DNA from: Candidatus Saccharimonadota bacterium
GTDB taxonomy: Bacteria > Patescibacteriota > Saccharimonadia > Saccharimonadales > Saccharimonadaceae
Assembly (NCBI GenBank): GCA_030445265.1
Contig: JAUCSC010000001.1
Location: 124,001-188,000, forward strand
DNA length: 64,000 nt
Reading direction: 5' to 3'
How positions within the stretch are numbered: the stretch's first letter is position 1; each line of letters opens with the position of its first letter. The notes beneath the pieces were generated by a model that did not search any database, was not told the origin of the DNA, and worked only from the letters and a program-made list of their open reading frames with translations. Positions 48 through 5,131 of this stretch are shown piece by piece. The translations under genes and the position numbers were made by a program.

Positions 48-1112
48 ATGAGTATCGAATATGACCGAACGGCCCTCCTCGCTCTCCCCGGTATACGCGA
101 CGGTAATCCTGAAGAAAAAGGGTTATTGTCGTGGTCTCGACCATATCTAGTCAACGAAATCCGCCAGCATGGCGTTGATGTGGCTGTTGCCAGAGGGCTC
201 GCTTCGTTAGATGAGACAGAGGCGATGGCGCATGACGTCATACGACCAGTCTACGGCGATCACGACCGCCAGGTCACGATAGAACGCCTTGGTTCTGTCG
301 GGGTAGGGGAATTTTCCGTGGTTCGGAATATTCTTCGGCCGCTTCATATGGAGACAGATACACCACTTCTGAACCCAAATAATGTACGGGCCCTCGCTCG
401 TGACAAATATCAGGTCGCCCAGACGGTGTTCGGACCAAACGATATGTATGGCAGAGAAGCGACGTTGATTGATAGAGAAGATAGCGGCTCGGATGTACAG
501 GCGAAGCTTGAATCGCTCCCTGGAGACCTTGTCGTTGCAAAACCGATTAATGGGCAACGCAGTAAGGGTGTGTATGTTGGCACGAAGGAAGAGGTTAGTC
601 AGGCACTAACTGAGAGGACAGCTGGCTACATTGTTGAGGAAAAACTTGATTTCAGTTCGCCACTCCCGCATCTTCGTGGTGTCGACGCAGAGCAACAGTC
701 ACGCCTCGAGCACGCCAACCAAGAGGGCGTGAACAAAGAGGTGCGCCTGTATTATTTCGGAAATGATCAATGGGATGTTGTCGGCCGGGTTGCAAAACGC
801 GGTGAAATCGACTTCCGCAGTGACGAGTGGCTCTATCTTGATCTTGAGTCAACGCCTGGCTACCTGGTAGAGGGTGCGCGGCAAGTGATTGCTCGCCTCC
901 AGGAGATTACCGGCAGCGACGAATTCAATATTGCAATCGACTGGGTATACGCCAGTTCAGCCTCACGTCCCGAGCCTGAATGGAAGCCGATGGAGTTGAA
1001 CGCCGCTGAGCCCCAGCTTGTCCAGCTCGGTGAACATGATGAAATCGGTCGCCGACATCACCGTAAACTTGCGGAACAGATTAGCCGTATCGCCCTGAAC
1101 AGGTATAATTAA
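48..1112 (+). CDS. ATP-grasp ligase-like protein (glutathione/cyanophycin synthetase-like)
   Basis: 354 aa ORF; ATP-grasp-like segments (DLVVAKPINGQRSKGVYVG, YIVEEKLDF, WKPMELNAAEPQ); TATAAT 6 nt upstream of ATG; operonic with a Mur ligase and RimK. Confidence 0.7.
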   Translation: MSIEYDRTALLALPGIRDGNPEEKGLLSWSRPYLVNEIRQHGVDVAVARGLASLDETEAMAHDVIRPVYGDHDRQVTIERLGSVGVGEFSVVRNILRPLHMETDTPLLNPNNVRALARDKYQVAQTVFGPNDMYGREATLIDREDSGSDVQAKLESLPGDLVVAKPINGQRSKGVYVGTKEEVSQALTERTAGYIVEEKLDFSSPLPHLRGVDAEQQSRLEHANQEGVNKEVRLYYFGNDQWDVVGRVAKRGEIDFRSDEWLYLDLESTPGYLVEGARQVIARLQEITGSDEFNIAIDWVYASSASRPEPEWKPMELNAAEPQLVQLGEHDEIGRRHHRKLAEQISRIALNRYN

Positions 1113-1132
1113 TAGAGAAGAAGGAGAACCAT

Positions 1133-2410
1133 ATGGCTACTGTTCCTATTATTTCTGTCACTGGCACAAAGGGCAAGACAACAACTGTCTCTGTCATTGC
1201 TGACGTGCTATTGCAGCTCCAGCACAACGTTCTCAAAGTAGATACGACGGGGCATTTCATGAATGGTGAACGTCGCAGCACGCTTGACGATTCCAAGTCA
1301 GCCTGGCGACTCGTACCCAGTGTCGCGCCTGGTCGCTATTTGTGGGAATTTCACGCTCGTCCCGAATTGAAAGAAAACGGTGTTGCCGTACTTGAATGCT
1401 CGCTTGGCTGTAGTGCTTCATCTGGTTTAGCCTATCGATATCACAAGGTGGGAATATTTTTGAACGTGTTTGAAGACCACCTTGGCTCGTCGGACCGTAT
1501 CAAAACCAAGGAAGATATCGCTCATGCCAAAGAATTTATATTCTCCCGCCTCCTCCACCAGGATGCGTATGCCGTATTCAACGCCGACGATATATTGGTT
1601 GTCGATCGACTGGAAGTCAGACCGAAAGTTGGTGTCACGCTGATCCCGTTTGGTCTCACGTTCAGCCACTTTGATATTCAGAGGCACCTGGCGGACGGCG
1701 GTGTTGCTGTCACGATGACTGAAGATAAGCGGATTGTACTACGCCGCCAAGAAAGCGACGAGACTATCCTCGACCTGAGGCAGATCCCTTGGACGTTTGA
1801 CGGTAATTTCTTACCCTCAGTCTGGAACCTCATGGCAGCCGTCGGAGGGATATATGGTATGTACGACGGTCAATTACCCGCAGGCGTCAAAGCAGTCTTC
1901 GAAGCAGTCAGACTTGACCCTTATGGCGGCCGCCTCACTATGCTCCGTAATCAAAATAACGTTCAGGTTCTGGCAGACTATGCCCATGAAAAAATATCAC
2001 TCGGTATGGTCGCCGACTTAGCCCGGACTAAAATTGGTGATGGTGGTAAAGTTATTGGCGTGGTACGTTTAGCCCACGACCGCACCGATGAATTGATGCG
2101 AGAAACGGGGACGGTTATCGGCCAGGCGTTTGATCAGCTGGTGGTCTACGACAAGATTGACGGCTATCTCAGGAAGGCTGTCACCAAGCATAAAAGATTC
2201 GAAGAAGTAGAAGGGCGCACGTCGCAGATACTGACCGATGCCATCGCTGAAGTGAACCCGCATGTCGAACGTATCATCCGTGAAGACGAGGCAATCGCGC
2301 GAGCTGCGGCCATAGCAAAGCCTGGTGACGTGGTCGTTATCATCGTGAACGACGACATAGTCCGCTCGATTAATTTCATTAAAAAAGCGTTTAACGCGGA
2401 GTTCGTGTGA
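1133..2410 (+). CDS. Mur ligase family protein (CphA C-terminal/MurE-like)
   Basis: P-loop VTGTKGKTTTVSVIADVL, LNVFEDHLG, LADYAHE motifs; SD gaaggaga upstream. Confidence 0.85.
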   Translation: MATVPIISVTGTKGKTTTVSVIADVLLQLQHNVLKVDTTGHFMNGERRSTLDDSKSAWRLVPSVAPGRYLWEFHARPELKENGVAVLECSLGCSASSGLAYRYHKVGIFLNVFEDHLGSSDRIKTKEDIAHAKEFIFSRLLHQDAYAVFNADDILVVDRLEVRPKVGVTLIPFGLTFSHFDIQRHLADGGVAVTMTEDKRIVLRRQESDETILDLRQIPWTFDGNFLPSVWNLMAAVGGIYGMYDGQLPAGVKAVFEAVRLDPYGGRLTMLRNQNNVQVLADYAHEKISLGMVADLARTKIGDGGKVIGVVRLAHDRTDELMRETGTVIGQAFDQLVVYDKIDGYLRKAVTKHKRFEEVEGRTSQILTDAIAEVNPHVERIIREDEAIARAAAIAKPGDVVVIIVNDDIVRSINFIKKAFNAEFV

Positions 2411-2901
2411 TGTCGGAGAGTCAACTTACTATTATTGGTCGCGCCGAGAAGGTAGCTTTTCCAGAACTTGGCGCCAAAATGGTTCCGACGAAGATTGATA
2501 CCGGTGCAGACTCATCCTCAATATGGGCTCATGTCACCAAGGTAGAGGATGAACGTCTGAAGGTCGTTTTCTTTAGTCCTGAGTCGCCTTATTACACCGG
2601 TGACGAACACGTTTTTGAAAAAGGTGACTTTGTCATTACGCGCGTGTCTAACTCATTTGGGCAAAGAGAACTTCGTTATAAAGTCACATTAAAGATTAAG
2701 GTTCATAATCGAGTCATTAATGGAACGTTCACGCTTGCAGATCGATCAAAAAAACTTTATCCTGTGTTGATCGGCCGTTCACTCCTGAAGAAGAAGTTCC
2801 TCGTTGACGTCTCGCTGGGCAGCCCACTGCGCAAGGAAGAGAAAGAGCGTGCCGACCGTCTGCACGAAGAACTGGTTAATACGAAAGAGGTTACTACATG
2901 A
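2407..2901 (+). CDS. RimB-like retropepsin-fold protein (ATP-dependent zinc protease family)
   Basis: KIDTGADSSSIWA (DTGA) motif and RxxLyPVLIGRSLLKKKFLVDVS; 4-nt overlaps with both neighbours. Confidence 0.8.
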   Translation: MMSESQLTIIGRAEKVAFPELGAKMVPTKIDTGADSSSIWAHVTKVEDERLKVVFFSPESPYYTGDEHVFEKGDFVITRVSNSFGQRELRYKVTLKIKVHNRVINGTFTLADRSKKLYPVLIGRSLLKKKFLVDVSLGSPLRKEEKERADRLHEELVNTKEVTT

Positions 2902-3803
2902 AAATTGCTATTTTATCGAAGGGAAGTGCTAACTACACGACCAAACGGCTCAAAGAAGTTGCTAAAGCTCGAGGCCATGAAGTCCGAGTCATCAACTATG
3001 CCAAGTGCTATGTTTCAATTGAAAAAGATAAGCCAGTCATCCGCTACAAAGGGGAGTCGCTGGATCATTTTGATGCCGTCATTCCTCGTATCGCTCAAAG
3101 CTATACCAAATACGGCACAGCGATGGTTCGCCAGTTTGAGAGTCAGGGCAGTTTTACGACCGCCAGCTCGATCGCTATTACGCGGTCGCGCGACAAGCTG
3201 CGTGCCTATCAGATTCTCGCAAAAGCCGGAGTCAGTATTCCAAAGACCGTCTTTGCGCGTGAAACTGCCAATTTCGAGGACGTCATTGCACTTGCCGGCG
3301 GCACGCCGCTCATTATTAAGGTAGCCCGTGGCACCCATGGCAATGGTGTAGTGCTCGCTGAAACACCAAAAGCTGCCAAAGCAGTTATGCAGGCGTTCTA
3401 TGTCGAAGGTGTGAACTTCTTGGTTCAGGAATTTATCAAAGAATCAGCTGGTGAGGATATCCGTGCGCTCGTGGTGGGCAGCCGGGTCGTTGCCAGCGTG
3501 AAACGGCAGAGTCTCGATGATGATTTTCGCTCAAATACTCACCAAGGCGGCGTCGGGACACCGATTAAACTGACTGATGAAGAGGTGAAGACAGCCATAA
3601 AGGCTGCTAAAGCGATGGGGCTGCCGATCTGTGGTGTCGATATGATGCGCAGTGAGCGTGGGCCGGTCGTTTTGGAAGTGAACTCATCGGCAAGTTTGAA
3701 GACGCCGGAAGCAATCACCAAGCGTGATATTGCGACCAGGATCATTGAATACATCGAGCTGAATGCGAAGCGTCACAATAAAAAAGATAAAGTCGGCGCC
3801 TAA
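2898..3803 (+). CDS. rimK: RimK-like ATP-grasp alpha-L-glutamate ligase
   Basis: ATP-grasp with GTHGNGVVLAE, VQEFIKESAGEDIRALVVG, RSNTHQGG, VLEVNSSASLK. Confidence 0.85.
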   Translation: MKIAILSKGSANYTTKRLKEVAKARGHEVRVINYAKCYVSIEKDKPVIRYKGESLDHFDAVIPRIAQSYTKYGTAMVRQFESQGSFTTASSIAITRSRDKLRAYQILAKAGVSIPKTVFARETANFEDVIALAGGTPLIIKVARGTHGNGVVLAETPKAAKAVMQAFYVEGVNFLVQEFIKESAGEDIRALVVGSRVVASVKRQSLDDDFRSNTHQGGVGTPIKLTDEEVKTAIKAAKAMGLPICGVDMMRSERGPVVLEVNSSASLKTPEAITKRDIATRIIEYIELNAKRHNKKDKVGA

Positions 3804-3827
3804 GAACCGCCTGCTATAATGGTGCTT

Positions 3828-4319
3828 ATGGCACCAGCTCACTTTTCTCTTCGTCATAATCATCTTGTGTGGTTGGCTGTAATTGGAGCGGTACTTATTG
3901 TTATTGCGAGTGCCGTTTCTATTATCATCAACAATTTTGGTGGCAATACGACGCAGCTTCTCATTGGCAATGCCGCCTTTGACGCGCGGGTAGCAAAGAC
4001 GGAGGATCAGCGCGTCAACGGCTTGTCGGGCACGCCTTCGCTTGGCAACCGTGAAGCCCTTCTTATGGTCTTTCCGTCGAACGGCGATTGGCAAATTTGG
4101 ATGAAAGATATGAAATATCCAATCGACATTATCTGGCTTGATGACCAAAAACGGGTCGTGTATATGGTTCAAGACGCCCAGCCGGAAGAACCAGCCTCAA
4201 AAATCTATGCGCCCGACGTAGATGCGCGGTACGTTGTTGAGCTAGCGGCTGGGACAATCCAGAAGATATCAATCCGCAGCGGTCAGGCTGCTATTTTTGA
4301 CGTAGGAGAGCCGTCATGA
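3828..4319 (+). CDS. DUF192 family protein with N-terminal TM
   Basis: NGLSGTPSL...LMVFPSNGDWQIWMKDMKYPIDIIWLD is DUF192-like; start chosen at TATAAT-N7-ATG rather than the upstream 3819 start. Confidence 0.8.
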   Translation: MAPAHFSLRHNHLVWLAVIGAVLIVIASAVSIIINNFGGNTTQLLIGNAAFDARVAKTEDQRVNGLSGTPSLGNREALLMVFPSNGDWQIWMKDMKYPIDIIWLDDQKRVVYMVQDAQPEEPASKIYAPDVDARYVVELAAGTIQKISIRSGQAAIFDVGEPS

Positions 4320-4801
4320 ACGTTCTCGTCGTCTTTATCGCCCTCGCCGTTTTCTTATTCCTTGCCGCCTTCCTGACAAAACGTCGTTTTGGGCTTCTGG
4401 GCCTGGCGCTGGCCGCTGGTGCCACACTAAGCATGCTATGGATAGATGAAGCGGGTGAGTTAGTGGCAATGATTGGCCTGTTCCCGATTTCACCACTAAC
4501 CAACGCGGTCACCCTCGGGCTTTTGGTATTGCTTCCAGCAATCCTGCTCCTGTTTCATGGTTATAGTTACAAGCGCCTCCCTGGGCGAATCATTGGCGCG
4601 ACACTGTTTACCCTCCTGGCCCTCGCCTTCCTGGTAGACCCCCTGCAATTTGCGCTACAGCTTGATGGAGTGGGCGGTACCGTGTACCGCTGGCTGCAAG
4701 AGTACAAAGACGTTATCATTGGCCTCGGTATGGTCATTGCCGTGGTCGACCTTTTTCTGACGAAGCCCGCTCCGGCTCCTGAGAAAAAGGGCAAACATTG
4801 A
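4316..4801 (+). CDS. multi-pass membrane protein, unknown function
   Basis: ORF overlapping DUF192 gene by 4 nt (ATGA); several hydrophobic segments. Confidence 0.6.
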   Translation: MNVLVVFIALAVFLFLAAFLTKRRFGLLGLALAAGATLSMLWIDEAGELVAMIGLFPISPLTNAVTLGLLVLLPAILLLFHGYSYKRLPGRIIGATLFTLLALAFLVDPLQFALQLDGVGGTVYRWLQEYKDVIIGLGMVIAVVDLFLTKPAPAPEKKGKH

Positions 4802-4851
4802 CTTTCGACCCCTATTAGCCTATAGTTTTTTGAGTACTTTACTATTATTAC

Positions 4852-4928
4852 GGGTCCATAGCTCAGCTGGTTAGAGCACCTGCCTTTTAAGCAGGGTGTC
4901 GTGGGTTCAAGTCCCACTGGACCCTCCA
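4852..4928 (+). tRNA. tRNA-Lys(TTT), CCA encoded
   Basis: gggtcca...cttttaa anticodon loop...gttcaagtc...tggaccc-t-cca; cloverleaf folds by eye. Confidence 0.95.
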
Positions 4929-4934
4929 AGAAAT

Positions 4935-4961
4935 AATACTCACCTTGTGTGGGTATTTTTT
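4935..4961 (+). terminator. Rho-independent terminator after tRNA-Lys
   Basis: aatactcac-cttgt-gtgggtatt stem followed by T run. Confidence 0.75.
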
Positions 4962-4981
4962 CTTGGTTGAGATCGATGCGT

Positions 4982-5001
4982 GACTTGAATCCACGACACC
5001 C
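4982..5001 (-). repeat. inverted near-copy (19/20) of tRNA-Lys 4894-4913
   Basis: gacttgaatccacgacaccc versus reverse complement gacttgaacccacgacaccc. Confidence 0.9.
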
Positions 5002-5102
5002 GTTAGGTGGAGTGGGTGAGAATTGCCAGTGGCAGTCCGCAAGGCAACCTTCCGATGGCAACTGGTTGCCGATCGCGAAGTTGCGGGGTCGCGGAACGTG
5101 AC

Positions 5103-5123
5103 CAAGTCCCACTGGACCCTCCA
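5103..5123 (+). repeat. 21-nt exact direct repeat of tRNA-Lys 3' end (4908-4928)
   Basis: caagtcccactggaccctcca at both positions. Confidence 0.95.
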
Positions 5124-5131
5124 TAGAATTT

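Follow-up and report, generated by a model that had tools for sequence, protein, structure and literature searches.

We analyzed a 64,000-nucleotide stretch of DNA (the window) from a Candidatus Saccharimonadota bacterium. The window, whose first nucleotide is base 124001 in a Saccharibacteria contig of 645 kb, opens with a block of genes that ends in a rimB-rimK pair. Four open reading frames (ORFs), all on the + strand, lie at 48-1112, 1133-2410, 2407 (or 2410)-2901, and 2898-3803, exactly where a preliminary description of this DNA had placed four same-strand genes. They encode a divergent ATP-grasp amidoligase (gene 1), a stand-alone Mur ligase resembling the M domain of cyanophycin synthetase, CphA (gene 2), a RimB-type retropepsin-like aspartic peptidase (gene 3), and RimK, an S6-type alpha-L-glutamate ligase (gene 4). 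The enzyme classes that the description had given to all four genes were borne out by Pfam and NCBIfam for genes 2 to 4 and by fold and alignment for gene 1. The profile search that it had proposed recovered Mur_ligase_M, Zn_protease, and RimK in genes 2 to 4; gene 1 had no Pfam match.

The block extends upstream past the window edge. A 316-amino-acid CphA G-domain-like ATP-grasp gene occupies window positions -945 to 5 on the + strand (G000:C1:123055-124005, L027:5056-6006). Only its last bases, including the stop codon at 1 to 5, fall inside the window. Its start overlaps by 1 nt the stop codon of dnaJ, which lies immediately upstream at -2045 to -945. The order in this genome is dnaJ, CphA-G-like gene, gene 1, Mur ligase, RimB, and RimK.

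Genes 1 and 2 are separated by exactly the 20 bp first reported, and a purine-rich stretch resembling a ribosome-binding site, agaaggagaacc, precedes gene 2. RimB and RimK overlap by 4 nt (ATGA), also as first reported. The overlap of the Mur ligase with RimB depends on the RimB start. A GTG at 2407 gives 4 nt, and an in-frame ATG at 2410 (TGATG) gives 1 nt. The ATG is the likely start, with a better fit to the MSxxLTIIGRAE start of the homologues. The overlaps are therefore probably one of 4 nt and one of 1 nt, not the two of 4 nt described.

Gene 2 contains the Mur_ligase_M (1e-14) and Mur_ligase_C (2e-10) domains. Pfam did not find the UDP-binding Mur_ligase_N domain that characterizes MurE, and the alignment begins at the P-loop domain, where the motif GTKGKT is intact (position 1163). 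In NCBIfam, the gene matched cyanophycin synthetase at 1e-52 versus 5e-17 for MurE. Its best fold match was CphA1 (7wae, E = 3e-26, template modeling [TM] score 0.77), ahead of MurE. Both results uphold the CphA-like nature first proposed for it. Gene 2 aligns to positions 478-860 of the 862 in the CphA model and has the P-loop M domain and C-terminal lid of a cyanophycin synthetase. The three domains N, G, and M are not united in one chain here, and the score of gene 2 is 179 bits against a cut-off of 850. The locus is not a member of the cyanophycin synthetases, even if its Mur ligase is homologous to the M domain.

The upstream gene matched the cyanophycin synthetase model TIGR02068 (4.7e-35) at positions 204-470 and the PDB structure of CphA 7lgn (1.8e-24). 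Because this gene covers the G domain and gene 2 the M domain, the CphA-like pair consists of these two, with gene 1 between them. The CphA N domain is absent from both. We considered and rejected genes 1 and 2 as the halves of a split CphA-like ligase, the pairing put forward in the preliminary description. Gene 1 has no CphA match, and the G-domain homologue is a separate gene off the window edge.

Gene 1 (48-1112) had no significant match in Pfam or NCBIfam. Its AlphaFold model (predicted local distance difference test score [pLDDT] 78.7, predicted TM score 0.82) matches RimK, Ddl, and MdnC. Among the listed hits, RimK bound to RpsF (5zk6) had the highest target-normalized TM score, 0.69. 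K165, R233, D298, E316, and N318 are invariant in an alignment of five gene 1 homologues. The absence of such catalytic residues had been named beforehand as what would speak against the assignment. Since the catalytic Lys, Arg, Asp, Glu, and Asn are common to the homologues and the fold matches, gene 1 is a true ATP-grasp enzyme, though not recognizably the CphA one. It is lineage variable: the locus has no copy of it in UBA2951 and G073, RYN410 keeps only what a deletion has left, and other genes take its place elsewhere. The RYN410 remnant (L021:5744-5995) has an intact start followed by the C-terminal end out of frame. The Mur ligase, RimB, and RimK downstream of it are intact.

Gene 3 matched Zn_protease/RimB at 9e-15 (PF05618, 55 bits against a cut-off of 27). 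Its DTGA motif at 2497 is intact and invariant in eight RimBs. Gene 4 aligns over its full length with relatives and matched RimK at 2e-55 and Rimk_N at 5e-37. It exceeded the cut-offs of PF08443 (188 bits, cut-off 21), PF18030 (127, cut-off 26.4), and TIGR00768 (244, cut-off 143). In the PDB it matched 7qyr, a probable alpha-L-glutamate ligase (1.8e-89). The RimK ATP-grasp motifs are intact, as were the other motifs listed at the outset.

The pairing of RimB with RimK, also pointed out before, is near-universal across relatives. Among 101 related genomes, 87 encode RimK and 79 encode RimB. We read 83 loci, and by automatic calling RimB or a RimB fusion lay directly upstream of RimK in 77. The exceptions include UBA2951, an artifact of ORF picking. 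Its RimB frame is intact, and the automatic ORF listing had an antisense ORF in its place. Both dnaJ and RimK were on the stretch in 72 loci, the window included. These loci were partly picked for carrying hits, so their fractions describe loci read and not an unbiased sample, though almost all genomes with RimK among the 101 were read. An accessory amidoligase or MATCAP peptidase lies between dnaJ and rimK in 48 of the 72 slots. Amidoligases occur in 43 and MATCAP (PF08014) in 21, and 24 have no recognized accessory gene. The amidoligases are CphA-G-like, RimK-like, GSH-S-like, L-amino-acid-ligase-like, gene-1-like, and Mur. These classes come from profiles built for this analysis, with a Pfam/NCBIfam check on representatives. 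The frame dnaJ-[slot]-rimB-rimK is thus shown to be fixed across the order and its slot content to be hypervariable. The window locus has this frame.

The CphA-G-like genes are more often in a slot without a Mur ligase than with one. Some are fused to RimB in a single chain with RimB C-terminal, in G005 (L164:5352-6848, verified), G036 (L162:4645-6198), and G057 (L163:6130-7650). No description of such a fusion was found in the literature consulted. A RimK-like ligase is fused to RimB in eight dnaJ-anchored loci. By Pfam search, MATCAP is present in 26 of the 101 genomes, many at the rim locus and some elsewhere (e.g., G011, G046, and G026). Genes of this family (PF08014, QEGLA/TMCP) stand beside RimB-RimK at L156:3105-4484, L159:7011-8363, L244:5039-6424, and some 20 further rim-slot loci. 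Most slot MATCAPs retain HExxxH and EEG, the signature of tubulin carboxypeptidases/deglutamylases (PMC10499314). Independently, this signature suggests that the substrate in common is an acidic peptide tail. Together, the fusions and the MATCAPs point to an acidic tail on which both the slot ligases and RimB act.

The search for relatives of gene 2 covered the 101 related genomes, 380 genomes of the phylum, and GTDB contigs. The Mur ligase was present in 5 of the 101. All eight Saccharibacterial copies (the window genome G000, G019, G058, G073, G098, G355, RYN410, and UBA2951) lie between dnaJ, or a contig edge, and rimK. RYN410 has dnaJ, CphA-G, the internally deleted gene 1, Mur, RimB, and RimK. 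UBA2951 has dnaJ, Mur, RimB, and RimK. G073 has dnaJ, a GGDEF-like gene, Mur, RimB, and RimK. At contig edges, G098 has gene 1, Mur, RimB, and RimK, and G058 has a partial Mur, RimB, and RimK. G019 has a gene-1-like gene, a RimK-like gene, a RimK-like::RimB fusion, Mur, and RimK; the dnaJ-like gene next to these has a divergent sequence and lies on the opposite strand. G355 has MATCAP, Mur, a GSH-S-like gene, a CphA-G-like gene, RimB, and RimK. No CphA-G gene was found anywhere in the UBA2951 and G073 genomes. Because these two keep Mur, RimB, and RimK without gene 1 or a CphA-G gene at the locus, the conserved unit is these three genes and not a split cyanophycin synthetase. The proposed check of neighborhood conservation thus went against the four-gene set, of which gene 1 is lost, a remnant, or replaced in relatives. 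The link between Mur and rim genes is a Saccharibacterial feature.

Two further observations concern these relatives. The GGDEF-like gene of G073 (L023:5596-6378) stands directly before Mur-RimB-RimK and recalls the cyclic di-GMP link of RimA/RimK in Pseudomonas. G210, from the same phylum but more distantly related, encodes a CphA-like protein (L155:960-3635; ATP-grasp and Mur, 891 amino acids) followed by two more CphA-G-like ligases.

The rimK end of the locus has a history of its own. The window RimK is 87-90% identical to that of several other genera versus 64-70% to congeners. The window DnaJ is most similar to congeners. In quick-search trees, grouping the window RimK with congeners was rejected by the approximately unbiased (AU) test (p-AU 2e-7). 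For DnaJ, grouping with congeners was accepted (p 0.55), and the grouping seen for RimK was rejected (1.5e-5). Because the two trees conflict, the rimK end is shown to have been exchanged horizontally relative to dnaJ.

We read the block as a Saccharibacterial rimB-rimK tail-modification locus whose slot is loaded with a ligase set of the cyanophycin synthetase type. We place this reading just on the probable side. RimK glutamylates S6 and makes poly-alpha-glutamate, and RimB both cleaves glutamates off and stimulates RimK (PMC11957791). The M domain of CphA joins Arg to the Asp side chains of a chain built by the G domain (PMC9427784). By analogy, RimK would extend an acidic C-terminal tail, that of ribosomal protein S6 being the likeliest, with several glutamates in a row, or make free poly-alpha-glutamate. 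RimB would trim the glutamate tail and stimulate RimK. RimK would thereby supply the acidic chain, the role played by the G domain in CphA. The Mur ligase, like the M domain, would use ATP to activate a carboxylate on the last acidic residue of the chain and join an amino acid to it. The product would be a branched or capped tail, its substrate, added amino acid, and linkage being those suggested by family biochemistry. Gene 1 and the upstream CphA-G-like ATP-grasp may add further residues in this genome and appear dispensable to the core of Mur, RimB, and RimK. S6 is the probable acceptor. Its tails are acidic, with E as the last residue in 55 of 76 relatives with RimK. Those of Mur-bearing genomes end in DEE (G058), TEE (G073), KEE (G019), and EEGEEE (UBA2951). 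RimB, RimK, and the locus census also support the tag that is attached and trimmed, as envisaged in the preliminary description.

Several results weigh against this reading. RimB reached 49.5 bits against the cut-off of 200 for the equivalog NF052261 and is a divergent RimB-like protein. RimK narrowly missed the equivalog for S6-modifying RimK, PRK10446 (326 versus 331 bits); the G019 homologue passes it with 342 bits. E-ending S6 tails are not significantly enriched with RimK (55 of 76 with RimK versus 8 of 15 without; Fisher p = 0.22, 91 tails). Of five ad hoc tail criteria, one reached p = 0.04 (an E at either of the last two positions), and this was lost after correction. The S6 tail of G355 ends in DA. 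The S6 gene was not found in the genome of the window, which is 77.6% complete. Sequence does not reveal which amino acid the Mur ligase joins, and this ligase, being rare (5 of 101), could act on a metabolite instead.

The locus might instead be a split cyanophycin synthetase. The upstream gene would make the backbone and the Mur ligase the side chains of a free storage polymer, with RimB and RimK as mere neighbors. The upstream gene and gene 2 do span CphA model positions 204-860 in CphA order, CphA-G and Mur are paired in RYN410, and both are present in G355. However, the N domain is absent from both genes, and UBA2951 and G073 keep Mur, RimB, and RimK with no CphA-G gene found in their genomes. 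The CphA-G-like genes themselves occur more often in slots that lack Mur, and three genomes have them fused to RimB. A search of the incomplete genome of the window for the cyanophycinase family (PF03575) gave no match. We consider this explanation unlikely. The storage peptide of the preliminary description is disfavored by the lack of the N domain, of a PF03575 match in this incomplete genome, and of CphA-G beside Mur in UBA2951 and G073.

It is slightly less probable still that the slot enzymes all act on free poly-alpha-glutamate or on a secreted or regulatory peptide, and not on the ribosome. RimK does make free poly-alpha-glutamate, with stimulation by RimB (PMC11957791), and there is no significant association between E-ending S6 tails and the presence of RimK. 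However, the window RimK is close in sequence to S6-modifying RimK, and the group as a whole has acidic S6 tails.

Two other explanations are very improbable. In the first, gene 2 is a MurE-like peptidoglycan paralogue that is here by chance; the MurE models do match it, at 5e-17 to 9e-20, but CphA is far better in sequence (1e-52) and fold, Mur_ligase_N is lacking, and eight of eight copies are in the rim slot. In the second, variable tail modifications shield the ribosome from toxins or phage and so drive cassette turnover, as a slot hypervariable between fixed genes and a horizontally replaced rimK block might suggest, but PADLOC gave no match for the eight slot and core proteins tested, the viral contigs searched held no Mur ligase relatives, and there is no direct link to any toxin.

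The tail-modification reading can be taken further. The locus may write a combinatorial S6 tail code, with RimB-RimK as fixed trimmer and writer. An exchangeable cassette of amidoligases (CphA-G, CphA-M, RimK-like, GSH-S-like, and L-amino-acid-ligase-like) and MATCAP peptidases of the deglutamylase type would be swapped horizontally from lineage to lineage beside them. The version in the window would graft CphA-type side chains on poly-Glu. We regard this extension as doubtful.

Saccharibacteria are epibionts with minimal genomes that have lost most biosynthesis. RimK and RimB are known to tune the ribosome by S6 glutamylation. RimB-RimK is nearly universal in Saccharibacteria, beside a slot that exchanges amidoligases and deglutamylase-type peptidases. 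The tubulin tail code of eukaryotes follows the same enzyme logic. Should S6 be where the products act, these bacteria would be varying how a ribosomal tail is modified. The finding of a CphA-M-type ligase apart from CphA, with RimK and not the ATP-grasp of CphA as its partner, suggests a way of making branched poly-glutamates, of which no description was found in the literature searched. No publication joining Saccharibacteria with RimK was found either, and of two that contain both Saccharibacteria and cyanophycin, one concerns a Gracilibacterium; the amidoligase survey of Iyer et al. (2009), the likeliest earlier report of such neighborhoods, was outside the search.

The surroundings of the block include few other features. 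A DUF192 gene (3819-4319, + strand) follows rimK, as it often does in Saccharibacteria. It is a frame marker and not clearly a member of the pathway. A tRNA-Lys(TTT) gene lies downstream of the block at 4852-4928, and the antisense reading frame across it (4567-5124) is probably spurious. A sigma-70 consensus scan of the window start gave no match upstream of gene 1, with totals near shuffled expectation. Some 10 nt before gene 1 there is nevertheless a TATAAT, and in UBA2951 the interval from dnaJ to Mur contains a perfect 12/12 promoter.

The locus resembles several known systems in part. As in CphA1 (N, ATP-grasp G, and MurE-like M domains), there are homologues of M (gene 2) and G (the upstream gene). 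Unlike CphA1, these are separate genes, there is no N domain, an extra ATP-grasp lies between them, and the M-type ligase accompanies RimB/RimK and is also found without a G-type gene. RloABC of Pseudomonas aeruginosa (a secreted retropepsin, an inactive transglutaminase, and an ATP-grasp) likewise pairs a retropepsin with an ATP-grasp (PMC12239564). However, no transglutaminase or seven-transmembrane partner was identified among the slot genes, and the best class match of gene 3 is RimB, not RloA. The tubulin tail code combines TTLL polyglutamylases with MATCAP/TMCP carboxypeptidases, and the slots of relatives combine ATP-grasp glutamate-type ligases with MATCAP HExxxH and EEG. The system here is bacterial, its target is likely S6 rather than tubulin, and the slot of the window itself has no MATCAP. 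Like the locus here, rimABK/rimBK of Pseudomonas has RimB directly upstream of and overlapping RimK, the DTG motif, and an intact RimK ATP-grasp. Hybrids of RimB with a ligase are a further shared feature (PMC11957791). The published RimBK hybrid has RimB N-terminal, whereas the fusions here (L026 and G005) carry it C-terminal to a RimK-like or CphA-G-like domain. No RimA was found in the block. The locus adds to the Pseudomonas arrangement an upstream slot of amidoligases and MATCAP peptidases and a CphA-M-type Mur ligase. The system works like, and builds on, the RimB-RimK module.

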